Below, one piece after another: positions 4,978 through 25,397 of a stretch of DNA of 64,000 nucleotides (position 1 is the stretch's first letter; every line of letters begins with the position of its first letter). A program made the position numbers and the translations under genes. The stretch is taken from assembly GCA_018712545.1 (NCBI GenBank), contig DVGV01000061.1:1-64000 (forward strand), in the 5' to 3' direction. Source of the DNA: Candidatus Coprenecus merdigallinarum. Lineage in GTDB: Bacteria > Bacteroidota > Bacteroidia > Bacteroidales > UBA932. Below the pieces are notes generated by a model. That model did not search any database. It was given only the letters and a program-made list of their open reading frames with translations, and had not been told where the DNA came from.

Positions 4978-6129
4978 ATGAAAGAAAAAATTCACTCACA
5001 GTTCGAAAAGCATTTCGGCGGCAACGGCACATTCTACGCCTCCGCCGGCAGAATCAACCTTATCGGCGAGCACACCGACTACAACGGCGGCTTCGTATTC
5101 CCCGGAGCCATCGACAAGGGCATGATGGCGGAAATCCGCCTCAACGGCACGGACAAGGTCCGGGTCTACTCGGTAGACCTGGAAGACTACGCCGAGTTCG
5201 GCTTCGCCGAAGCCGATGCCCCCTCTGCATCATGGGCCCGGTATGTGTTCGGCGTATGCAGGGAAATCATCAAGAGATGCGGAGATGTACTCAAAGGCTT
5301 TGACGCCGCTTTTGCAGGCGACGTACCCATCGGAGCCGGCATGTCCTCCTCCGCCGCCCTCGAAAGCACATTTGCCTATGCCCTGAACGACATGCTGGGT
5401 CTCGGCATCGACAAGTTCGAGCTGGCCCGCATCGGCCAGAGCACCGAGCACAACTACTGCGGGGTCAACTGCGGCATCATGGACCAGTTCGCCTCCATCT
5501 TCGGCAAGGCCGGCAGCCTGATGCGCCTGGACTGCCGCTCGATGGAGCACAGGTACTATCCGTTCCATCCCAAGGGCTACCGCCTCGTTCTGCTCGACTC
5601 AGTGGTCAAGCACGAGCTGGCCTCCTCGGCCTACAACAAGCGCCGCGCCTCCTGCGAGCATGTAGTGGCCGCCCTCAAGGCCGCAGGGCATCCAGAGGTG
5701 GAGTTCCTCCGCGACGTGGACATGCAGATGCTCTCCGAAGTAAAGGGCAAGGTATCCGATGAGGACTACATGAGGGCCGAATACGTAATCGAGGAGATTC
5801 AGAGAGTGCTCGATGTCTGCGACGCCCTCGAGCGCGATGACTACGAGACCGTGGGACAGAAGATGTACGAGACACATCACGGCATGAGCAAGCTCTATGA
5901 AGTGAGCTGCGAGGAGCTGGATTTCCTCAACGACATAGCCCGCGAATGCGGCGTGACCGGCTCCAGGGTCATGGGCGGCGGCTTCGGCGGCTGCACCATC
6001 AACTTAGTCAAGGATGAGCTCTACGATGCCTTCATCGCACGTGCGAAGAAAGAGTATGCGGCTAAGTTCGGACACGAGCCCAAGATATATCCGGTGGTAA
6101 TCAGTGACGGAGCGCGTAAACTTGAATAA
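4978..6129 (+). CDS. galK: Galactokinase
   Basis: GRINLIGEHTDYNGGFVFP, GAGMSSSAALE and MGGGFGGCTINLV (GHMP kinase, GalK type). Confidence 0.95.
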   Translation: MKEKIHSQFEKHFGGNGTFYASAGRINLIGEHTDYNGGFVFPGAIDKGMMAEIRLNGTDKVRVYSVDLEDYAEFGFAEADAPSASWARYVFGVCREIIKRCGDVLKGFDAAFAGDVPIGAGMSSSAALESTFAYALNDMLGLGIDKFELARIGQSTEHNYCGVNCGIMDQFASIFGKAGSLMRLDCRSMEHRYYPFHPKGYRLVLLDSVVKHELASSAYNKRRASCEHVVAALKAAGHPEVEFLRDVDMQMLSEVKGKVSDEDYMRAEYVIEEIQRVLDVCDALERDDYETVGQKMYETHHGMSKLYEVSCEELDFLNDIARECGVTGSRVMGGGFGGCTINLVKDELYDAFIARAKKEYAAKFGHEPKIYPVVISDGARKLE

Positions 6130-7405: not shown

Positions 7406-8218
7406 ATGAGAAATTTATTTGACATATCAGGCAAAACCGCAGTAATCACAGGCGGAAGCGGCGTCCTTGGAAACGCCATGACGAGATATCTGGCGGCACA
7501 GGGTGTCAGGACCGCAGTCCTGGCCCGCAATGAGACTAAAGGGAATGCCCTCGTTTCGGAAATCCGGGCTGAGGGAGGCGAGGCAATGTTCCTCAGGACA
7601 GATGTAACCGACAGGGAGATACTGGAACGTAACTGCCGGGACATTCTCAGCGCCTATGGAAAGATAGATATGCTGATAAACTGCGCCGGAGGCAATATGC
7701 CGGGAGCCACCGTTCCACCTGAGAAAACCATTTTCGACCTGAACATAGAGGACTTCAGGGAAGTCGTAGACCTCAACCTGTTCGGAACCGTCATCCCGAC
7801 TCTGGTATTCGCCGGGGCTATGCGGAACAGCGGAGGCGGCCCCATTGTCAACATGTCCTCAGAATCAGCCCTCCGCCCGCTTACCAGGGTCGCCGGATAC
7901 GGCGCGGCAAAGGCCGCGGTCACAAATTTCACGCGCTACCTTGCCTCGGAGCTCGCCCTGAAATTCGGGGACTGCTTCAGGGTCAATGCCATGGCTCCTG
8001 GATTTTTCCTGACCGAGCAGAACCGTACCCTGATGACCAACCCGGACGGAAGCCGCTCGGCAAGGGCTGAGAGCATCCTGGCCCACACTCCTTTCGGACG
8101 GTTCGGCGAACCGGAGGAACTTCTGGGCACCCTGCACTATCTGGTGAGCGATGCCTCCCGCTTCGTTACCGGCACAGTCATAGTCGTCGACGGAGGATTC
8201 GACGCATTTTCCATATAA
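7406..8218 (+). CDS. uxuB: SDR family oxidoreductase, probable D-mannonate oxidoreductase (fructuronate reductase)
   Basis: SDR fold (TGGSGVLGNAM, NCAGGN, YGAAKAA, TGTVIVVDGGFDAFSI). Directly upstream of uxuA. Confidence 0.8.
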   Translation: MRNLFDISGKTAVITGGSGVLGNAMTRYLAAQGVRTAVLARNETKGNALVSEIRAEGGEAMFLRTDVTDREILERNCRDILSAYGKIDMLINCAGGNMPGATVPPEKTIFDLNIEDFREVVDLNLFGTVIPTLVFAGAMRNSGGGPIVNMSSESALRPLTRVAGYGAAKAAVTNFTRYLASELALKFGDCFRVNAMAPGFFLTEQNRTLMTNPDGSRSARAESILAHTPFGRFGEPEELLGTLHYLVSDASRFVTGTVIVVDGGFDAFSI

Positions 8219-13781: not shown

Positions 13782-13788
13782 TGAACCG

Positions 13789-13863
13789 GGTGGAAGATGG
13801 GACTCGAACCCACGACCCTTGGTGCCACAAACCAATGCTCTAACCAACTGAGCTACATCCACC
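13789..13863 (-). tRNA. tRNA-His (GTG)
   Basis: Minus strand (G)GTGGATGTAGCTCAGTTGGTTAGAGCATTGGTTTGTGGCACCAAGGGTCGTGGGTTCGAGTCCCATCTTCCAC(C). Anticodon loop TTGTGGC. G-1:C73 pair encoded. No encoded CCA. Confidence 0.95.
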
Positions 13864-13969: not shown

Positions 13970-15751
13970 ATGGCACGTGAAATCAAATTCTCCCTTGTTT
14001 ACAGGGATATGTGGCAGTCTTCGGGCAAATACGTCCCGAGGGTTGACCAGCTTGTTCAGATCGCTCCCGTCATCATCGACATGGGCTGCTTCGACAGGGT
14101 CGAGACCAACGGAGGAGCGTTCGAGCAGGTGAACCTTCTCTTCGGAGAGAACCCCAACAAGGCCGTAAGAGCCTGGACCGCACCCTTCAACAAAGTCGGC
14201 ATACAGACACACATGCTCGAAAGAGGTCTCAACGCCCTCCGTATGAATCCCGTTCCGAGGGATGTCAGGGGCCTCATGTATAAGGTAAAGGCAAAGCAGG
14301 GCACCAATATCTCCCGCTCGTTCTGCGGCCTCAACGACCACCGCAACCTCAAGGACTCCGTCATCCTCGCCAAGGAGGGCGGCATGATCTCCCAGGTGGC
14401 CCTCAGCATCACCTACTCCCCCATCCACACCGTAGAGTACTACATGGACATCGTGGACAAGGTGGTGGAATACGGCTGCGACGAGATCTGTCTCAAGGAC
14501 ATGGCCGGCATCGGACGTCCCGCCTTCCTGGGCCGTCTGACCAAGAGTATCAAGGACAAATATCCCCACATCATCGTGCAGTATCACGGCCACTCGGGCC
14601 CCGGCTTCTCGACTGCCTCCATGCTGGAAGTGGCCCGTGCCGGCGCCGACTATCTGGACGTGGCCATGGAGCCCCTGTCCTGGGGTAAGATCCATCCCGA
14701 CGTAATCACCATCCAGGCCATGCTCAAGGACGCGGGTTTCCTGGTAAAGGACATCAACATGGACGCCTACATGGAGGCCCGCCGTCTGACCCAGACCTTC
14801 ATCGACGACTTCCTGGGCATGTTCATCGAGCCGAACAACTACATCAGTTCCTCCCTCCTGGTAGGCTGCGGTCTGCCCGGCGGCATGATGGGTTCCATGA
14901 TGGCCGACCTCAAGGGCTTCCAGAGCGCGATCAACATGTCCCTGCGCAACCAGGGCAAGAAGGAAGTTTCCCTCAACGAACTGATGGTGATGCTCTTCCA
15001 GGAGGTAGAGTACGTATGGCCCAAGCTCGGCTATCCCCCTCTCGTAACTCCATTCAGCCAGTACGTGAAGAACACCGCCCTGATGAACCTCATGCACACC
15101 CTCAAGGGCGAGCCCAGATGGAAGACCATCGACAAGGACACCATGAACATGATCCTCGGCAAGACCGGAACCCTGCCCGGCCCTCTGGCTCCAGAGATTC
15201 TCGACATCGTCAAGGAGAAAGGCCTGGAGTTCTACACCGGCAATCCTCAGGACGCCTTCCCCGACGAGCTGCCTCACTTCATCGAGGAGATGAAGAAGGA
15301 AGGCTGGGACCGCGGTCAGGACGACGAGGAGCTCTTCGAGTTCGCAATGCACGAGCGCCAGTACCGGGACTACAAGAGCGGAGTGGCCAAGGACCGATTC
15401 AACAAGGAGCTGGAGGCTGCCCGCGAGAAGGCCGGAGCCCCGAAGATAGTCACCCGCAAGGTGGTCGAGGTACCCGCATTCGACGTGGAGAAGGTCATGG
15501 CGGAGCATCCCAAGGCCATGCCCGTTCAGGCCGTTGCCAAGGGCAAGCTCATCTGGAGGTACAATGTCTCCGATGACAGCACTGCCCCCGCCATCGGCAC
15601 CAAGTTCCAGGAGCTCACCCCGATCTGCTACATCCAGACCTACTACGGAGTGGAGCCTGTCTATGCTCCCATTACCGGCAAACTCATCCAGGTGGAGGTT
15701 AGGCACAACGAGAACGTGGAGATCAACCAGGTACTCTGCTTCATCGAGTAA
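13970..15751 (+). CDS. PycB/OadA-like carboxyltransferase with a degenerate C-terminal biotinyl-like domain
   Basis: RDMWQSSGKYVPRVDQL, ETNGGAFEQVNLLFGENP, EICLKDMAGIGRPAFLGRL and VQYHGHSGPGF typical of carboxyltransferase TIM barrels. C terminus reads IGTKFQELTPICYIQTYYGVEPVYAPITGKLIQVEVRHNENVEINQVLCFIE. Confidence 0.85.
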   Translation: MAREIKFSLVYRDMWQSSGKYVPRVDQLVQIAPVIIDMGCFDRVETNGGAFEQVNLLFGENPNKAVRAWTAPFNKVGIQTHMLERGLNALRMNPVPRDVRGLMYKVKAKQGTNISRSFCGLNDHRNLKDSVILAKEGGMISQVALSITYSPIHTVEYYMDIVDKVVEYGCDEICLKDMAGIGRPAFLGRLTKSIKDKYPHIIVQYHGHSGPGFSTASMLEVARAGADYLDVAMEPLSWGKIHPDVITIQAMLKDAGFLVKDINMDAYMEARRLTQTFIDDFLGMFIEPNNYISSSLLVGCGLPGGMMGSMMADLKGFQSAINMSLRNQGKKEVSLNELMVMLFQEVEYVWPKLGYPPLVTPFSQYVKNTALMNLMHTLKGEPRWKTIDKDTMNMILGKTGTLPGPLAPEILDIVKEKGLEFYTGNPQDAFPDELPHFIEEMKKEGWDRGQDDEELFEFAMHERQYRDYKSGVAKDRFNKELEAAREKAGAPKIVTRKVVEVPAFDVEKVMAEHPKAMPVQAVAKGKLIWRYNVSDDSTAPAIGTKFQELTPICYIQTYYGVEPVYAPITGKLIQVEVRHNENVEINQVLCFIE

Positions 15752-15772: not shown

Positions 15773-15808
15773 AAGAGGCCGTGTCCAGTCGGGCACGGCC
15801 TCTTTTTG
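15773..15808. terminator. Bidirectional terminator between the carboxyltransferase gene and nifJ
   Basis: aagaggccgtg-tccagtcggg-cacggcctctt stem followed by a T run. Confidence 0.8.
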
Positions 15809-15823
15809 CATCAGGCACTCAGC

Positions 15824-18800
15824 TTATTCCTTGCCTGCGAGACGCTTGTAGGACTCGTAGCGGATCTGTGCGAAGTGCTGGGTCTTGTCGAAGAGTTCCT
15901 GGGCGATGTCGGGGAAGCTCTTCATCAGCGAGCTGTAGCGCACCTCACCCTTGATGAACTCCTGGAACTTGCTCCAGTCGGGCTCCTTGCTGTCGAGGCT
16001 GAAAGGATTCTTGCCTTCTTCGGCCAGCGCGGGATTGAAGTGATACAGATGCCAGTAACCGCACTCGACGGCGAGTTTCTCTTCGTGCTGGCTCCTGCCC
16101 ATGCCGTTGCGCAGACCGTGGTTGATGCAGGGAGCATAGGCGATGATCAGGGAAGGTCCGTTGTAGGCCTCTGCCTCCTTCAAGACGTTGAAGTACTGAG
16201 CGGGGCTGGCGCCCATAGCCACCTGTGCCACGTATACGTAACCGTAGCTCATGGCCATCATGCCGAGGTCTTTCTTGCGTACCCTCTTGCCGGAGGTCGC
16301 GAACTTGGCCACGGCACCTGCGGGGGTGGACTTGGACGACTGTCCGCCGGTATTGGAGTACACCTCGGTGTCGAGGACGAGGACATTGACATTCTCGCCG
16401 GAAGCCAGGACATGGTCCAGTCCGCCGTATCCGATATCGTATGCCCAGCCGTCACCGCCGAAGATCCACTGGCTGCGTGCAGGGATATAGTCCTTGTACC
16501 CGAGAAGCTCGCGGCATGCCTCGCAGTCGCTTTCCTCGAGCATCGGCACGAGCTTGTCGCAGATCTCGCGGGTTGCGGTGGCGTTGCCTCTCTCAGAGAG
16601 CCACTGTTCGAAGAGAGCCTTGATCTCTGAAGAACACTTGGGGCACTCCAGACCTTTCTTCATCAGTTCTGCCACAGTATTGCGCAGACGCTCTGTTCCG
16701 AGTCTCATACCGAGACCGAACTCGGCGTTGTCCTCGAACAGGGAGTTGTCCCATGCGGGTCCGCGTCCATTGTGGTCTGTGCAGTAAGGAGACGAAGGGA
16801 ACGAGCCGCTGTAGATAGAAGAGCAGCCGGTAGCGTTGGCCACCATCATATGGTCGCCGAAGAGCTGAGTGATGGTCTTGATATAAGGAGTCTCACCGCA
16901 GCCGGCGCAGGCACCGGAGAACTCAAACAGAGGCTGTGAGAACTGGGAATTCTTGAGGTTCTGAGTCTTGGGAGCGACAGTATCCTTATAGCCCACGTTG
17001 GCATGCATGTAGTCAAATACAGGCTGCTGGTCCATCTGCGTAGCAAGGTGCTTCATCTCGAGAGCCTTCTCCTTGGCAGGACATACGTCCACGCAGTTGC
17101 CGCAGCCGGTGCAGTCCATAGGAGACACCTGCATGGTGAAGCGGTAAGCCTTGAAAGCGGCGATACCCTGGGTGCTCTTGGCAGCCTTGGGAGCCTTGGC
17201 CAGTTCCTCCTCAGTGGTAAGGAAAGGACGGATAGCGGCGTGAGGGCAGACGTACGCGCACTGGTTGCACTGGATACATTTCTCAGGATTCCACTCGGGA
17301 ACGCTCACAGCTATACCGCGTTTCTCGTAAGCGGCTGTGCCGGCAGGAATGGTACCGTCGGCATACTCGCCGGTAAATGCGCTCACAGGCACATCATAAC
17401 CGTTCTGAGCGTTGACCACATCGGCCACATTGCGCACCCACTCAGGGGCCAGACGGTCGAAATTGGCGGGACGGAAACGGGAAACCACGTTCTTCCAGTC
17501 AGCAGGAACGACAAGCTCCTCGTACTCGGCGCCGCGGTCTACTGCAGCATAGTTCATGCTGACCACCTTTTCGCCCTTCTTGCCATAACTCTTGTCGATG
17601 GCTTTCTTCATAAAGGCCACTGCCTGGTCATAGGGGATGATGCCGGTGATCTTGAAGAACGCCGACTGGAGAATGGTATTGGTGCGATTGCCCAGACCGA
17701 TCTCCTCTGCAATCTTAGTTGCATTGATTACGAACACCTTGAGGTTCTTCTCCGCGATGACCTGCTTTACATGATCAGGTATCCTCTTGATGGTCTCTTC
17801 CATCGACCAGAGGCTATTGAGCAGGAAGGTGCCGTTCTGCTTGATGCCTTTGAGCACATCATACTTGTAGAGATATGAAGGCACGTGACAGGCCACGAAA
17901 TCGGGAGTCGACACGAGGTAGGGAGAAGTAATCGGGCTGTCACCGAAACGCAGGTGCGAGCAGGTGTAACCGCCTGACTTCTTGGAATCGTAGTCAAAAT
18001 ATCCCTGGCAGTATTTGGGGGTGTGGTCGCCTATAATCTTGATTGTATTCTTGTTCGCACCCACTGTACCGTCTGAGCCAAGACCGTAGAACTTGCACTC
18101 GTAGGTACCTTTCCGGGCAAGGGAAATCTCCTCGCCCACGGGAAGGGACTTGTAAGTCACATCGTCGGTGATACCGATAGTGAAGTCGGTCTTGGGCTCC
18201 TTCTGCTTGAGATTCTTGAACACCGCGAAAATCTGAGCGGGGCTGGTATCCTTGGAGGAGAGTCCGTAGCGTCCTCCGATGACGTAGGGAGCGTCTCCGC
18301 CCAACTCGGCAAGCGTGGACTTGATGTCCAGATACAGAGGCTCGCCCACGCTTCCGGGCTCCTTGCAGCGGTCGAGGACGGCAATCCTCTTCACGCTCTT
18401 GGGCAGCACCCTGAAGAAGTACTTGGAGGAGAAAGGCCTGTAGAGACGGACGGTTATCACACCGACCTTCTCGCCTTTGGCCATAAGGGCATCCACCACC
18501 TCGCGTATAGTCTCGCAGACGGAGCCCATGGCTATGATTATATCCCTGGCTTCGGGATCACCGTAATAGTCGAAAGGCAGGTAATGGCGTCCTGTCAGCT
18601 CACCGATCTCGCCCATATAGCGGGCAACGATATCGGGCACGGCGTTGTAGTAGGTATTGCAGGCTTCACGGGCCTGGAAATATACATCGGGATTCTGCGC
18701 GGTACCACGGGTCACAGGCTTGTTGGGGTTAAGAGCCTTCTTGCGGAAAGCGGCGAGAGCCTTCTCGCTGATCATGCCCTTGAGGGCATCAGAGTCGAGA

Positions 18801-19360
18801 ACCTCAATCTTCTGAATCTCGTGGGAAGTACGGAATCCGTCGAAGAAGTGGATAAAGGGGACGCTGGACTTGATTGTCGAAAGATGCGCCACAGCGCCGA
18901 GATCCATGGCTTCCTGCACGCTTGAAGAGGCCAACATGGCGAAACCGGTCTGACGGCAGGCCATCACGTCCTGATGGTCTCCGAAAATCGAGAGAGCCTG
19001 GGTGGCAAGAGCGCGGGCCGATACATGGAACACCGTGGGCAACAGCTCGCCGGCAATCTTGTACATGTTGGGGATCATCAGCAACAGGCCCTGTGATGCA
19101 GTGAATGTGGTGGTCAGGGCACCGGCCTGAAGCGAGCCGTGAACGGCTCCGGCAGCACCGCCCTCACTCTGCATCTCGGTGACCTTCACGGTCTCACCGA
19201 AAAGGTTCTTCTTTCCGAAAGCAGCCCACTCGTCCACGTACTCGGCCATGGTCGAGGAAGGAGTGATGGGATAGATGGCGGCATGCTCGCTGAACATATA
19301 CGCCACGTGCGCAGCGGCGTAGTTACCGTCACAGGTAATGAATGTTTTTTCTTTTGCCAT
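15824..19360 (-). CDS. nifJ: Pyruvate:ferredoxin (flavodoxin) oxidoreductase
   Basis: YPITPSSTMAEYVDEWAA, two 4Fe-4S motifs (CIQCNQCAYVCPHAAI, CTGCGNCVDVCPA), GDGWAYDIGYGGLDHVLASG, LDTEVYSNTGGQSSKSTP. Confidence 0.95.
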   Translation of the reverse strand: MAKEKTFITCDGNYAAAHVAYMFSEHAAIYPITPSSTMAEYVDEWAAFGKKNLFGETVKVTEMQSEGGAAGAVHGSLQAGALTTTFTASQGLLLMIPNMYKIAGELLPTVFHVSARALATQALSIFGDHQDVMACRQTGFAMLASSSVQEAMDLGAVAHLSTIKSSVPFIHFFDGFRTSHEIQKIEVLDSDALKGMISEKALAAFRKKALNPNKPVTRGTAQNPDVYFQAREACNTYYNAVPDIVARYMGEIGELTGRHYLPFDYYGDPEARDIIIAMGSVCETIREVVDALMAKGEKVGVITVRLYRPFSSKYFFRVLPKSVKRIAVLDRCKEPGSVGEPLYLDIKSTLAELGGDAPYVIGGRYGLSSKDTSPAQIFAVFKNLKQKEPKTDFTIGITDDVTYKSLPVGEEISLARKGTYECKFYGLGSDGTVGANKNTIKIIGDHTPKYCQGYFDYDSKKSGGYTCSHLRFGDSPITSPYLVSTPDFVACHVPSYLYKYDVLKGIKQNGTFLLNSLWSMEETIKRIPDHVKQVIAEKNLKVFVINATKIAEEIGLGNRTNTILQSAFFKITGIIPYDQAVAFMKKAIDKSYGKKGEKVVSMNYAAVDRGAEYEELVVPADWKNVVSRFRPANFDRLAPEWVRNVADVVNAQNGYDVPVSAFTGEYADGTIPAGTAAYEKRGIAVSVPEWNPEKCIQCNQCAYVCPHAAIRPFLTTEEELAKAPKAAKSTQGIAAFKAYRFTMQVSPMDCTGCGNCVDVCPAKEKALEMKHLATQMDQQPVFDYMHANVGYKDTVAPKTQNLKNSQFSQPLFEFSGACAGCGETPYIKTITQLFGDHMMVANATGCSSIYSGSFPSSPYCTDHNGRGPAWDNSLFEDNAEFGLGMRLGTERLRNTVAELMKKGLECPKCSSEIKALFEQWLSERGNATATREICDKLVPMLEESDCEACRELLGYKDYIPARSQWIFGGDGWAYDIGYGGLDHVLASGENVNVLVLDTEVYSNTGGQSSKSTPAGAVAKFATSGKRVRKKDLGMMAMSYGYVYVAQVAMGASPAQYFNVLKEAEAYNGPSLIIAYAPCINHGLRNGMGRSQHEEKLAVECGYWHLYHFNPALAEEGKNPFSLDSKEPDWSKFQEFIKGEVRYSSLMKSFPDIAQELFDKTQHFAQIRYESYKRLAGKE

Positions 19361-19398: not shown

Positions 19399-20265
19399 TT
19401 ACTTTTCCGCAGGAAGGCATTTCCTGATAAGTCCCTGCAGGACGGCTCCGGGGCCGAGCTCTACGAACTCGTCAGCTCCGTCACGATGCATGTTAAGAAC
19501 AGTCTGGGTCCATCTTACCGGAGATGTGAGCTGCTTGAGAAGCTTCTCCTTGATGACTGCAGGATCGGTCGACGGCAGAGCGTCTACATTCTGATACACC
19601 GGGCACACAGGAGTCCTGATATCGGTCCGGCTTATGGCCTCTGCAAGCTCCACGCGGGCGGGCTCCATCAGAGGGGAATGAAAAGCGCCGCCTACGGCAA
19701 GGCGGAGTGCTCTTTTTGCACCGGCGTCCTTAAGCACGGCACAAGCCTTGTCCACTGCCTCGATCTCACCGGAGATGACCAGCTGTCCCGGGCAGTTGTA
19801 GTTTGCGGGAACGACCACACCGTCAATATCGGCACAGGCCTTCTCGACCACCCCGTCTGGCAGTCCGATGATGGCTGCCATCGTAGACGGATGCGCCTCG
19901 CAGGCCTTCTGCATGGCCATAGCCCTGGCATACACCAGCCGCAGACCGTCCTCGAACGACATGGCGCCGGCTGCCACCAGCGCAGAGAACTCTCCCAGGG
20001 AGTGACCGGCGGTCATTCCCGGACGGAAGTCCTCGATTGTTGCGGCGGCTGCCACGGAATGAATAAAAACAGCCGGCTGAGTAACCTTTGTCTGCTTCAG
20101 GTCATCGGCCGAACCGTTGAACATTATATTGCGAATATCGAATCCGAGAATGTCGCAAGCGCTGTCTATAAGTGCTTTAGCTTTAGGGCTGACATCGTAC
20201 AGGTCCTTGCCCATCCCTGTAAACTGTGCTCCCTGTCCGGGAAAAACATAAGCTGTCATATTCAA
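19399..20265 (-). CDS. fabD: ACP S-malonyltransferase
   Basis: FPGQGAQFTGMGKDLYD, AGHSLGEFSALVAAGA, GGAFHSPLM. Confidence 0.92.
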   Translation of the reverse strand: MNMTAYVFPGQGAQFTGMGKDLYDVSPKAKALIDSACDILGFDIRNIMFNGSADDLKQTKVTQPAVFIHSVAAAATIEDFRPGMTAGHSLGEFSALVAAGAMSFEDGLRLVYARAMAMQKACEAHPSTMAAIIGLPDGVVEKACADIDGVVVPANYNCPGQLVISGEIEAVDKACAVLKDAGAKRALRLAVGGAFHSPLMEPARVELAEAISRTDIRTPVCPVYQNVDALPSTDPAVIKEKLLKQLTSPVRWTQTVLNMHRDGADEFVELGPGAVLQGLIRKCLPAEK

Positions 20266-20300: not shown

Positions 20301-20372
20301 GCCTCCGTAGTTTAATGGATAGAATGAGAGATTCCGGTTCTCTTGGTTGGGGTTCGATTCCCCACGGAGGTA
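20301..20372 (+). tRNA. tRNA-Arg (CCG)
   Basis: GCCTCCGTAGTTTAATGGATAGAATGAGAGATTCCGGTTCTCTTGGTTGGGGTTCGATTCCCCACGGAGGTA. Stem AGAGA/TCTCT with loop TTCCGGT gives anticodon CCG. TGGATAGA D-loop is typical of Arg tRNAs. No encoded CCA. Confidence 0.85.
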
Positions 20373-20978
20373 CTATTCTTCAATCTGCCTCACACTCCCA
20401 TCAGTTTCCGTATCCACTACTATATTTTTCATTTCCCTCCGGATGGTGTATGTCGATGCGAACTCCGACACTGAGTAAAGCAGCAGAGTGGCTCCGAATA
20501 CCACGAACACCGCATTGCTGCTCCTGTCCGGAAAGAAAAACATTACTATACCGAGGATAAGGGTTATCGCAGGGCCGATGTACAGAGGCCACGGCACGCG
20601 CACGGTCTTGGCCGAGCGGAAGAGATTGATGATCTCACCCAGTCCGAAAACCAGAAGGACAAGACCGAAGACGAACATTATCAGCTCCGCGAAGAATTTG
20701 GGGAAAATAATGAGGACCAGTCCGAAGGCAATATCAACAATCGAGTTGAGCAGCAGCAGAGGGACCTTCTCCTTCTTCCACTTGCCGGTATACGAAAGAA
20801 TCAGGCTCACCAGACCTACGGCAAGAATCAGCGCTCCGAGGATTATCATGATGGAGTTCTTGACGGCCTCCGGCCAGACAACCAGGACAAGACCGCCTAT
20901 CAGGGCTATTATCGCCCTGGAATAACCGTAGGATCTATCAAAAAAGACATTGGCTGTTTTCATACTGCAAAGATACAA
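20373..20978 (-). CDS. DUF308 (HdeD-like) multi-pass membrane protein
   Basis: Repeated hydrophobic helices with GGLVLVVWPEAVKNSIMIILGALILAVGLVSLI and FGLVLLVFGLGEIINLF. The ATG of MKTANVF (20963) is an alternative start. Confidence 0.75.
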   Translation of the reverse strand: MYLCSMKTANVFFDRSYGYSRAIIALIGGLVLVVWPEAVKNSIMIILGALILAVGLVSLILSYTGKWKKEKVPLLLLNSIVDIAFGLVLIIFPKFFAELIMFVFGLVLLVFGLGEIINLFRSAKTVRVPWPLYIGPAITLILGIVMFFFPDRSSNAVFVVFGATLLLYSVSEFASTYTIRREMKNIVVDTETDGSVRQIEE

Positions 20979-21948: not shown

Positions 21949-22694
21949 AGCATGCCGCCGTCGCAGACAATCACCTGACCCGTCACATACGAGGAGAGGT
22001 CGGAAGCGAGGAACAGAGCCACGTTGGCTATATCCTCGGGAGTACCGCCGCGACGGAGGGGTATCTTCTTGTTCCACTCGTCACGTACTTCCTGAGGCAG
22101 GGCATTGGTCATGTCGGTGATGATGAATCCGGGAGCTATGGCATTGGCGCGGATGCCGCGGGAACCCATCTCCTTGGCAATGGACTTGGCCAGACCGATC
22201 AGACCGGCTTTGGACGCTGAGTAATTGCACTGTCCGGCATTGCCGTTAACACCCACCACCGAAGAGATGTTGATGATGCTGCCTCCTCTCTGACGGGCCA
22301 TGATAGGGGTCAGGGCATGAGTAAAGTTGAACGCACTCTTGAGGTTGACTGTAATGACGCTGTCCCACTGCTGCTCGGACATCCTCATCATCAGGCCGTC
22401 GCGTGTAATACCTGCATTGTTTACCAGGATGTCGATATGACCGAAATCCTCATTGATCTGACTGACCGTAGCATGGGCCTCGGCGAAATCAGCCGCGTTG
22501 GAGGCATAGCCCCGGCACTGTACTCCGAGAGCCGATATCTCTGCAACAGTGTTTTTGAAATTGTCGTCCTCCTTGAGGTCCGTGAAAGCGATGTCGGCTC
22601 CTGCAGAAGCCAGTTTCATGGCTATAGCCTTGCCGATACCGCGGGCGGCTCCTGTTATCAGGGCCACTTTCCCTTTTAATAATCCTTCTAACAT
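21945..22694 (-). CDS. fabG: 3-oxoacyl-ACP reductase
   Basis: ALITGAARGIGKAIA, NNAGITRDGLMMRM, NISSVVGVNGNAGQCNYSASKAGLIG, SSYVTGQVIVCDGGML. Confidence 0.9.
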   Translation of the reverse strand: MLEGLLKGKVALITGAARGIGKAIAMKLASAGADIAFTDLKEDDNFKNTVAEISALGVQCRGYASNAADFAEAHATVSQINEDFGHIDILVNNAGITRDGLMMRMSEQQWDSVITVNLKSAFNFTHALTPIMARQRGGSIINISSVVGVNGNAGQCNYSASKAGLIGLAKSIAKEMGSRGIRANAIAPGFIITDMTNALPQEVRDEWNKKIPLRRGGTPEDIANVALFLASDLSSYVTGQVIVCDGGML

Positions 22695-22699
22695 AGCGT

Positions 22700-23137
22700 T
22701 TATTTTACTTTATCGTTAGGAATGACTGCGAATGACAGATTGGCCTCAACAGCAAGTTCGCCCTCTACGAAGGCTTTTGCCTCGATATAGAAGAGCATGG
22801 CCCTGTGATTGGTGATGTGGGCATGTACCTCAACGGTGTCACCGGGACGGACCTGACGTTTGAAACGGGTTTTGTCGATACCGGTGAAGAGGGTGGTGTG
22901 ACCCACCAGGTAGTCCTTGATCAGCAGAGAACTGCACTGTCCCATAATCTCACAGAGGATAACTCCGGGCACTACCGGATAGCCGGGGAAATGGCCCTGA
23001 AGAAAGAACTCATCCCCCTTTACATGATACTTGCCGATGCATTCCGAACCGTCGTTCTGAAGCTCCATCTCGTCCACCAGGAGCATGGGCTCGCGGTGAC
23101 GAAGGAATTTCTTAATTTCTTCTCTATCCATAATCAT
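22700..23137 (-). CDS. fabZ: 3-hydroxyacyl-ACP dehydratase, FabZ type
   Basis: HREPMLLVDEM, GHFPGYPVVPGVILCEIMGQ hot-dog fold motifs. Confidence 0.85.
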   Translation of the reverse strand: MIMDREEIKKFLRHREPMLLVDEMELQNDGSECIGKYHVKGDEFFLQGHFPGYPVVPGVILCEIMGQCSSLLIKDYLVGHTTLFTGIDKTRFKRQVRPGDTVEVHAHITNHRAMLFYIEAKAFVEGELAVEANLSFAVIPNDKVK

Positions 23138-23160: not shown

Positions 23161-24426
23161 TCAGATACGTCTGAATGCGAGAACAGCGTTGTGACCTCCG
23201 AAACCGAGGGACGAGGACAGGGCAATGGTCAGCCTGGCCTCGCGGGCGCTGTTGGGGTTGACATCCAGATCGCACTCCGGATCGGGGACCTCGTAATGAA
23301 TCGTAGGAGGTACTATTCCGTCATGGAGAGCCATTACTGCCGCTACCGCCTCGATACCGCCGGCAGCTCCGAGAGCATGTCCGGTCATGGATTTGGTGGA
23401 GCAGAGGATAGCGCGGCGGGCTTCCGAGTCTCCGAGAGCGAGCTTGATGGCCGCTGTCTCGGACTTATCGTTCAGAGGAGTACCGGTACCGTGAGTGTTG
23501 ATGTGCAGCAGGTCGGAAGTGGAGTAATGGGCCTCCGTCAGGGCCTGCCTGAAAGCCTTGGCGGGCGTAGAACCGTCAGGGCATGGAGCGGTGTAGTGAT
23601 ATGCATCGCAGGTGTTGCCGTAACCGCATATCTCGGCGTAAATCTTGGCTCCGCGGGCGACAGCGTGCTCATACTCCTCGAGGACCACAACTCCGGCACC
23701 CTCTGCGATGACGAAACCCTGACGGCGGGCATCGAACGGCAGTGAGGCTGCCATGGGATCCTCTGCAGGAGAGAGGGCCTTGCTGTTGGAGAAACCTCCG
23801 ATGGCCAGAGGTGTCACTGCGGCCTCCGTACCGCCGGCAATGATAGCATCGGCGTAGCCGAATTTAATAGCCCTGTAAGCCTCGCCGATGGAGTGGGTGC
23901 CGGTGGCACAGGCGGTCACGATAGGCAGACACACGCCCTTGGCATGATGTGCGATGGCGACATTGCCGGCAGCGATATTGGCTATCATCGTAGGGATGAA
24001 CAGGGGAGATATCCACTGAGGTCCGTCCTTGATCAGCTTGGCTGTCTCGTTGACAAAGGAGTGCATGCCTCCGATACCGGAACCGATATAGACTCCGAAG
24101 CGGTCCGCCACTACTGTTCCGGGAGTATCATCCTCCTCGTCATCGGTGGACTTCAGTCCGCTCATGGCCACAGCCTGATTGGCTGCAGCAAGCGCGAAAA
24201 GGCTGAAACGGTCGAACTTCCTGGCCGCCTTGGGCTCGATGCCATAGTCGGCCGGTCTGAAGTCCTTGACCTCTCCTGCTATTTTCACTGAAAGTCCGTC
24301 CGTAGGGAACTGCGTGATATAGTCTATACCGCAGACTCCGTTAACGATGTTCTTCCAGAAAGTCTCTACATTATTTCCGACGGGCGAGACCACACCCATT
24401 CCTGTCACTACTACTCTTTTTTCCAT
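23161..24426 (-). CDS. fabF: Beta-ketoacyl-ACP synthase II
   Basis: VVVTGMGVVSPVGNN, TACATGTHSIGEAYRAI, NTHGTGTPLNDKSE, STKSMTGHALGAAGG. Confidence 0.92.
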   Translation of the reverse strand: MEKRVVVTGMGVVSPVGNNVETFWKNIVNGVCGIDYITQFPTDGLSVKIAGEVKDFRPADYGIEPKAARKFDRFSLFALAAANQAVAMSGLKSTDDEEDDTPGTVVADRFGVYIGSGIGGMHSFVNETAKLIKDGPQWISPLFIPTMIANIAAGNVAIAHHAKGVCLPIVTACATGTHSIGEAYRAIKFGYADAIIAGGTEAAVTPLAIGGFSNSKALSPAEDPMAASLPFDARRQGFVIAEGAGVVVLEEYEHAVARGAKIYAEICGYGNTCDAYHYTAPCPDGSTPAKAFRQALTEAHYSTSDLLHINTHGTGTPLNDKSETAAIKLALGDSEARRAILCSTKSMTGHALGAAGGIEAVAAVMALHDGIVPPTIHYEVPDPECDLDVNPNSAREARLTIALSSSLGFGGHNAVLAFRRI

Positions 24427-24437
24427 ATCGTTTTATT

Positions 24438-25397
24438 TTACATTGACCAGCGGAGAATACATGCCCCGGTAGTGAATCCGGCTCCGAACGCACTGAGCAG
24501 CAACATTTCTCCATTTTTTAACTTATTGCCCCTGCTGAGATCGTCCAGCAGGGCGGGAATCGACGCGGAAGAGGTGTTTCCGTACTTGTCGAGGTTGAAG
24601 GGAAACTTGCTCTTGTCCTGATTGACAAAATGCCTGATGGACTCGATGATGCGGACGTTGGCCTGATGCAGCACATACAGGTCTATCTCGTCGGCAGTCA
24701 TGCCGGCCATGGTCAGCACTTTCTCTATATCCTTGATAGAGGAGGATACTGCGAGTTTGAATACGTCCTGACCGTTCATCACCACACCTTCCGTATCGAC
24801 CTCTTCCTTGGTTATGAAGGGAGTCGGCTGAAGCTTGCGCTTCTGGTAGAGAGCCTCCACCTTGCAGTGGGTCGATACACGGATGGCCTTCAGGCCATCT
24901 CCCTTGGTTACTACGACAGCACCGGCGGCATCTCCGAAAAGGATACAGGAGGAGCGGTCATGCCAGTTCATCATGCGGGCAGGCTCCTCTGCGCAGACTA
25001 TGAGGATGTTCCTCATGTCCTTCTTGGTCGCCAGATACGCCTCGGCAACATCCAGGGCGTAAATAAATCCGGTGCAGGCGCAGTTGATGTCCATCGTCGG
25101 ACAGGTGGCGCCGATCATGCCCTGTATCACGCAGCCCAGTCCGGGGGTGACATACTCGTTCACCACATTGGAGCAGATGATGAAATCAACGTCATCTGAT
25201 GTTATCCCGGCGTTCTCCATAGCGTTACGGGCGGCCGTCGCGGCCAGATCCTCCAGATTCTCGGAGGAGATGACACGCCTCTCGTGGATACCTGTACGGG
25301 TCACGATCCACTCATCGCTGGTATCCAGGAAGTTCTCCAGCATCGAATTGGTCACGACCTTGGAGGGACGTGCACTGCCAGTTCCTATAATTCTCAT
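24438..25397 (-). CDS. fabH: Beta-ketoacyl-ACP synthase III
   Basis: IIGTGSARPSKVVTN, DINCACTGFIYALDVAEAYL, HQANVRIIESI, YGNTSSASIPALLDD. Confidence 0.92.
   Translation of the reverse strand: MRIIGTGSARPSKVVTNSMLENFLDTSDEWIVTRTGIHERRVISSENLEDLAATAARNAMENAGITSDDVDFIICSNVVNEYVTPGLGCVIQGMIGATCPTMDINCACTGFIYALDVAEAYLATKKDMRNILIVCAEEPARMMNWHDRSSCILFGDAAGAVVVTKGDGLKAIRVSTHCKVEALYQKRKLQPTPFITKEEVDTEGVVMNGQDVFKLAVSSSIKDIEKVLTMAGMTADEIDLYVLHQANVRIIESIRHFVNQDKSKFPFNLDKYGNTSSASIPALLDDLSRGNKLKNGEMLLLSAFGAGFTTGACILRWSM

Follow-up and report, generated by a model that had tools for sequence, protein, structure and literature searches.

A lysine-less carboxyltransferase of the OadA/PycB/5S type in Bacteroidales without biotin carboxylase: a possible subunit of a transcarboxylase

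What can a carboxyltransferase do if it carries a biotinyl domain of its own and that domain has lost the lysine to which biotin is attached? The question is raised by an open reading frame (P0001) of 593 amino acids in the window, that is, the whole stretch of 64,000 nucleotides from Candidatus Coprenecus merdigallinarum that was analysed. The features of the gene and its immediate surroundings are as follows.

13788-13862, minus strand: tRNA-His, on the other flank of the lysine-less gene
13970-15751, plus strand: lysine-less carboxyltransferase of the OadA/PycB/5S type (NCBIfam matches and AlphaFold2 model)
15512-15748, plus strand: degenerate biotinyl domain, residues 515-593 (AlphaFold2 model of the isolated domain, Foldseek match to 1bdo, Pfam matches of relatives)
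15635-15649, plus strand: QTYYG hairpin replacing EAMKM, residues 556-560, with Tyr559 (15644-15646) at the position of the biotinyl lysine
15775-15807, no strand assigned: hairpin with T5, probable terminator between the convergent genes (read by eye)
15824-19360, minus strand: pyruvate:ferredoxin oxidoreductase (PFOR), the convergent neighbour (open reading frame and sequence)

An earlier note, made from the sequence of the window alone, had described the gene as a single cistron that converges on PFOR across a shared terminator. The gene is indeed solitary between tRNA-His and PFOR and has no PycA neighbour, and the convergence with PFOR stands; the hairpin of 12 pairs followed by T5 was found by eye but was absent from the output of the terminator scan, and the shared terminator is supported only to that extent. 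PFOR is retained near the gene in 11 of the 72 loci of relatives that have enough flank. No relative of the protein was found among viral contigs.

Similarity to PycB, OadA and 5S covers the length of the protein, and both NCBIfam scores are well under the curated cut-offs: the best match, PRK09282 (PycB), has an E-value of 5.5e-68 and 229.9 bits against a cut-off of 402, and oadA has 1.9e-66 and 224.8 bits against 756.5. The AlphaFold2 model matches 5S (1rqh) and OadA (2nx9) with TM-scores by target of 0.84 and 0.86, respectively, at an identity of about 24-26% in the structural alignment, while the best structural match by E-value is the two-subunit pyruvate carboxylase 5ks8. A member of this family should have the metal ligands, the carbamylated lysine and the threonine of the carboxyltransferase site, and the alignment to 5S and OadA places all of them.

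14006-14008, plus strand: Asp13, metal ligand of the carboxyltransferase site (aligns with RD of 5S and OadA)
14495-14497, plus strand: Lys176 in LKDMAG, the lysine expected to be carbamylated (aligns with LKDMA of 5S)
14585-14593, plus strand: His206-Gly-His208, metal ligands (aligns with HCH of 5S)
15047-15049, plus strand: Thr360 in VTPxSQ, equivalent of the proton-shuttle threonine of pyruvate carboxylase

R12, D13, Q16, R85, K176, H206, H208, T360 and Q364 were each found invariant in 135 of 135 homologues. On these alignments and models the window protein is a divergent member of the OadA/PycB/5S family. In pyruvate carboxylase the threonine shuttles protons with biotin, and we take Thr360 to be the counterpart of T908 of the Staphylococcus aureus enzyme.

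The earlier note had claimed that the C-terminal domain keeps the biotinyl fold, that tyrosine in QTYYG stands where EAMKM has its lysine, and that the protein is probably not self-biotinylated. The alignment confirmed the tyrosine, since VQTYYGLEE of the window protein lies opposite VEAMKMMNQ of E. coli BCCP, and a profile search with the domain retrieved E. coli BCCP, the glycine cleavage H protein and 1.3S. With the Pfam Biotin_lipoyl model the window protein itself scores 14.2 bits, which is under the cut-off of 22.1, but lysine-less relatives score above it (35.3 bits in G004, 33.6 in G005, 31.4 in G367 and 26.7 in G016) and the domains of 53 of 57 relatives match this family. AlphaFold2 predicted for the domain alone a confident barrel-sandwich with a core pLDDT of about 95 and with QTYYG in the hairpin joining two strands, and the best PDB match by Foldseek was the E. 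coli biotinyl domain 1bdo (TM-score 0.84 by target, rmsd 2.0). Thus, of the two marks of a biotinyl domain, the barrel-sandwich fold is present and the lysine in an (A/S)MK(M/L) hairpin is not. Alignment, model and conservation across the family therefore support both a retained fold and a chain that does not biotinylate itself, the latter without any measurement of biotin. The different-cofactor role that had also been suggested found no support and is not excluded; the domain may serve in docking, set the geometry of an oligomer or block the active site of its own chain.

Had the lysine been lost recently in one genome, the claim would have fallen. This was checked by a survey of homologues, in which 119 of the 135 aligned sequences have no lysine at the biotinyl position (Tyr 109, Trp 6, Leu 2, Phe 1 and a gap 1, with Lys in 16), so that possibility was excluded. 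Lysine-less forms occur in the GTDB family of the window (Ca. Coprenecus and Cryptobacteroides are among its named members), in Dysgonomonas and in a Paludibacter MAG, and also in a second family of the order (f2, motif PWG) and a third group (f66, motif SDLNY). In the tree, 33 lysine-less sequences fall in one clade (support 100/99), which includes three lysine-bearing long forms of f66, and the remaining 13 lysine-bearing sequences form a separate clade. The lysine-bearing forms are paralogues, in some cases in the same genomes as lysine-less ones; G128 and G432 have both, together with a biotin carboxylase. The ratio dN/dS was 0.01-0.26 for the biotinyl domain and 0.005-0.037 for the core, and mean identity to the window protein was 42% and 81%, respectively. 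By these dN/dS values the biotinyl domain is under constraint, though looser than that on the core. The loss of the lysine is old and selected; conservation and dN/dS rule out a pseudogene or decay as well. The lysine-less protein has no match in ten of 60 genomes of the family, among them every one of the three genomes sampled from genus g18. The long forms of f66 (L066, L067, L087) have 717-720 amino acids, with an extra domain ahead of an intact DAMKM carrier, and accompany a lysine-less copy in G190 and G216.

If the protein does not carry biotin, a partner should. The earlier note had proposed a separate carrier protein and a search for a PycA/AccC partner, and the search for the latter gave the main result of this work, one that could not be seen from the window: the biotin carboxylase C-domain (PF02785) was found in none of the 60 family genomes, 41 of which are of high quality. 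The same search detects it in 13 of the 14 genomes used as controls and in 380 of the 396 class genomes, so the absence is a trait of the lineage and not an assembly gap. In the window's genome (G000) a second ATP-grasp model, PF02786, found only CarB-like and Ddl-like proteins and no biotin carboxylase. These counts contradict the idea of a PycA partner. The protein could otherwise be read as the B subunit of a pyruvate carboxylase of the two-subunit kind, with PycA and a carrier as separate partners, as its best structural match, 5ks8, and its top NCBIfam match, PRK09282, would suggest, but such an enzyme needs a PycA, which is neither a neighbour of the gene nor encoded in any of the 60 family genomes surveyed, and we regard this explanation as very improbable. 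In the survey of the class, 12 sampled genomes of the order Bacteroidales, the window's own included, have no biotin carboxylase C-domain. Four such genomes (G259, G300, G316, G401) have no lysine-less protein either, hence other routes to malonyl-CoA must exist; possible examples in genomes without the protein are formation by MmdA from methylmalonyl-CoA or import of fatty acids.

The stand-alone carrier was found. The genome G000 (2.2 Mb at 87% completeness) encodes a single strong biotin carrier, of 146 amino acids and of the MmdC type with EAMKM, and one CoA carboxyltransferase, MmdA, which matches the 12S structure 1on3 at 1.9e-178. Together with the absence of biotin carboxylase from the family this carrier supports the separate-carrier claim. 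Both genes lie at C57 in a cluster epimerase - mmdA - OadG-like - mmdC - mmdB that adjoins a V-type ATPase operon; MmdA and MmdC, the likely partners, come in G000 from a Na+-translocating methylmalonyl-CoA decarboxylase (MmdA-E), with MmdB and an OadG-like subunit. G047, of the same genus and 99% complete, likewise has exactly one strong carrier and one CoA carboxyltransferase, and biotin protein ligase was present in 10 of 10 genomes tested. The lysine-less gene is unlinked to mmdA and mmdC in most genomes; in Dysgonomonas (L129), mcee-mmdA-carrier lies 5 kb downstream of it on the same strand.

Since G000 encodes the pump subunits, the protein, with its OadA-type sequence and fold, could be the alpha subunit of an oxaloacetate decarboxylase that pumps Na+ through the same MmdB, MmdC and OadG as MmdA, converting oxaloacetate to pyruvate and CO2 with export of Na+. 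In such an enzyme the alpha subunit is biotinylated and always accompanied by beta. The first does not hold here, there being no biotinyl lysine, and the second fails outside G000, which has OAD_beta: three relatives, G023 (100% complete), G447 (99%, 2 contigs) and G367 (99%), have the lysine-less protein and neither OAD_beta nor biotin carboxylase. In addition, the gene was not linked to mmdB in any of the loci seen, and the f2 genomes have a separate lysine-bearing OadA-like paralogue. A role in a pump is therefore unlikely, though it keeps some weight.

The three genomes without a pump have kept the cluster mmdA - short peptide - carrier, with one carrier in each, besides the lysine-less gene, and G023 has lost the epimerase gene next to mmdA along with the pump. 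Without biotin carboxylase, carboxybiotin can be obtained only from another carboxyl donor, and without OAD_beta the only biotin chemistry that remains in these genomes is transfer between two carboxyltransferases. This gene set is, as a genomic inference, the strongest argument for a system like 12S/5S/1.3S. We consider it probable, in the absence of biochemical evidence, that the lysine-less protein is the 5S-like keto-acid subunit of a three-part biotin-dependent transcarboxylase that uses a borrowed carrier. It would catalyse the oxaloacetate/pyruvate half of the reaction; its fused biotinyl domain, fold kept and lysine lost, would no longer carry biotin, and carboxybiotin would be carried by the separate MmdC-type protein, common to it and to MmdA as the 12S-like CoA-ester carboxyltransferase. 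The carboxyl group would then pass from oxaloacetate to MmdC-biotin and on to an acyl-CoA, or in reverse, with neither ATP nor biotin carboxylase. The docking of MmdC, the direction of transfer, the acyl-CoA substrate and a structural or docking role of the dead domain are all inferred, and so are the formation of a complex and the exchange of carboxyl groups between a keto acid and an acyl-CoA, which define transcarboxylases and for which the evidence is genomic and not biochemical.

The Propionibacterium transcarboxylase (methylmalonyl-CoA carboxytransferase, EC 2.1.3.1) is the known system to compare. Like it, the set described here has a 5S-type subunit that is not itself biotinylated (judged from sequence only), and the same genome also encodes a CoA carboxyltransferase and a small carrier that is a protein of its own; biotin carboxylase is not needed. 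Unlike it, the keto-acid subunit retains a full biotinyl domain, the genes are mostly unlinked, and in one relative the set lies in a fatty-acid operon and not in propionate metabolism; identity to 5S is low, as given above. The 5S subunit of P. freudenreichii is not known to have any biotinyl domain, so the two arrangements are not identical. With OadA and PycB the protein shares the order of carboxyltransferase barrel, PYC_OADA domain and C-terminal biotinyl domain, and it differs from them in the missing lysine, in scores far under their curated cut-offs, in a family without biotin carboxylase and in the absence of the pump beta subunit from several genomes that have the gene. The lysine-less domain can be seen as an intermediate stage: in OadA and PycB the carrier is fused, in transcarboxylase it is a protein of its own. 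Against a transcarboxylase it counts that the gene is mostly unlinked to its proposed partners and without a match in the ten family genomes mentioned, and that G000 itself has MmdB and OadG beside MmdA and MmdC, where a pump role is possible.

Where biotin carboxylase is absent and only one CoA carboxyltransferase is present, it must be asked how malonyl-CoA is obtained. The window has genes of fatty-acid synthesis, all on the minus strand, with fabH, fabF and the fabZ-like and fabG-like genes consecutive and fabD closer to the lysine-less gene.

19399-20265, minus strand: FabD, malonyl-CoA:ACP transacylase (Pfam Acyl_transf_1, 9.7e-44)
20301-20373: tRNA-Arg
21951-22670, minus strand: FabG-like reductase
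22715-23131, minus strand: FabZ-like dehydratase
23161-24426, minus strand: FabF (TIGR03150, above cut-off)
24438-25397, minus strand: FabH (TIGR00747, above cut-off)

A link of the protein to such genes was beyond the view of the earlier note, which was right in substance. The FabH C-domain was found in 7 of 10 genomes, and fab genes are kept without biotin carboxylase. In locus L149, from Bacteroidales RGIG5433, the lysine-less protein is 71% identical to that of the window and its gene ends a run on one strand of fabK, fabF, fabZ, an mmdA-like gene, a 35-residue peptide, the carrier, fabD, fabG and the lysine-less gene, neighbouring genes being separated by a few to about 40 bases. In this fab operon mmdA, the carrier and the lysine-less gene take the place that one would expect acc genes to hold. 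The L149 FabD is 65% identical to that of the window, and its MmdA is the sister of the G023 MmdA in the tree (100/99). MmdA has Ile at the position which in Streptomyces AccB is known to admit acetyl-CoA. It is quite possible, though short of probable, that oxaloacetate and acetyl-CoA are converted to pyruvate and malonyl-CoA by the lysine-less protein, MmdC-biotin and MmdA in place of an ATP-dependent acetyl-CoA carboxylase, feeding FabD; the activity has not been shown. The evidence from L149 comes from a single MAG contig that opens with a fragment of fabH, and the FabG of L149 is matched by the flexirubin model FlxB as well, so that the run could belong to a secondary pathway. No other, independent fab operon containing the MmdA, carrier and lysine-less genes turned up in the 80 named loci.

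The same operon bears on whether biotin is involved at all. An enzyme that works without biotin, such as an aldolase or an oxaloacetate decarboxylase, with the dead domain left over as a structural remnant, would suit the DRE-TIM type of metal site in the TIM barrel, a chain without biotin and a domain that evolves much faster than the core. It would leave unexplained the invariance of Thr360, the co-occurrence with MmdA and one carrier in genomes that offer these two no other obvious use, and the operon that both share with the gene in L149, and we think it quite unlikely.

Acetyl-CoA carboxylase is, to our knowledge, regarded as near-universal in bacteria and is an antibacterial target, yet widespread Bacteroidales of gut and rumen appear to lack biotin carboxylase while carrying fatty-acid synthesis genes. 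If malonyl-CoA is made from oxaloacetate, central carbon flux and lipid synthesis would be coupled without ATP. Neither a malonyl-CoA route free of biotin carboxylase nor a lysine-less PycB was found in the literature searched, outside which most subscription papers lie. Papers on the propionate pathway of Prevotella and Xylanibacter assign MmdA and MmdC only to the decarboxylase (PMC11575231, PMC10542786), and the carboxyl route could therefore be re-tested directly in these organisms.

Some minor observations concern the neighbourhoods. In the window and in relatives L090-L104, tRNA-His, the lysine-less gene, tRNA-Arg, fabD and PFOR form a conserved neighbourhood, with the fabD-PFOR block of the window inverted relative to L090 and L094. 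An operon of the lysine-less gene with fabD was rejected for most relatives because the tRNA-Arg on the opposite strand intervenes; only the neighbourhood is conserved. The short open reading frame (35-72 amino acids) that separates mmdA from the carrier gene is similar to the C-terminal tail of the G000 OadG-like subunit (YAAIA.AL...VHD.ES..LTI); it occurs in L220 (about 7737-7886), L221 (7416-7634), L222 (2400-2650), L226 (7760-8060) and L149 (about 5797-5905), has been retained in loci that have lost the membrane anchor and MmdB, and recalls the epsilon subunit of the Veillonella methylmalonyl-CoA decarboxylase. In L223 (6659-8606, G011) and L225 (6607-8804, G004) a second and divergent pair of mmdA and carrier genes adjoins a large open reading frame resembling glycine decarboxylase, and neither pump genes nor a biotin carboxylase accompany it. 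Finally, the OadG-like subunit of the window's genome (L170, 7455-8384) has an N-terminal Lamin Tail Domain (PF00932) besides OAD_gamma.
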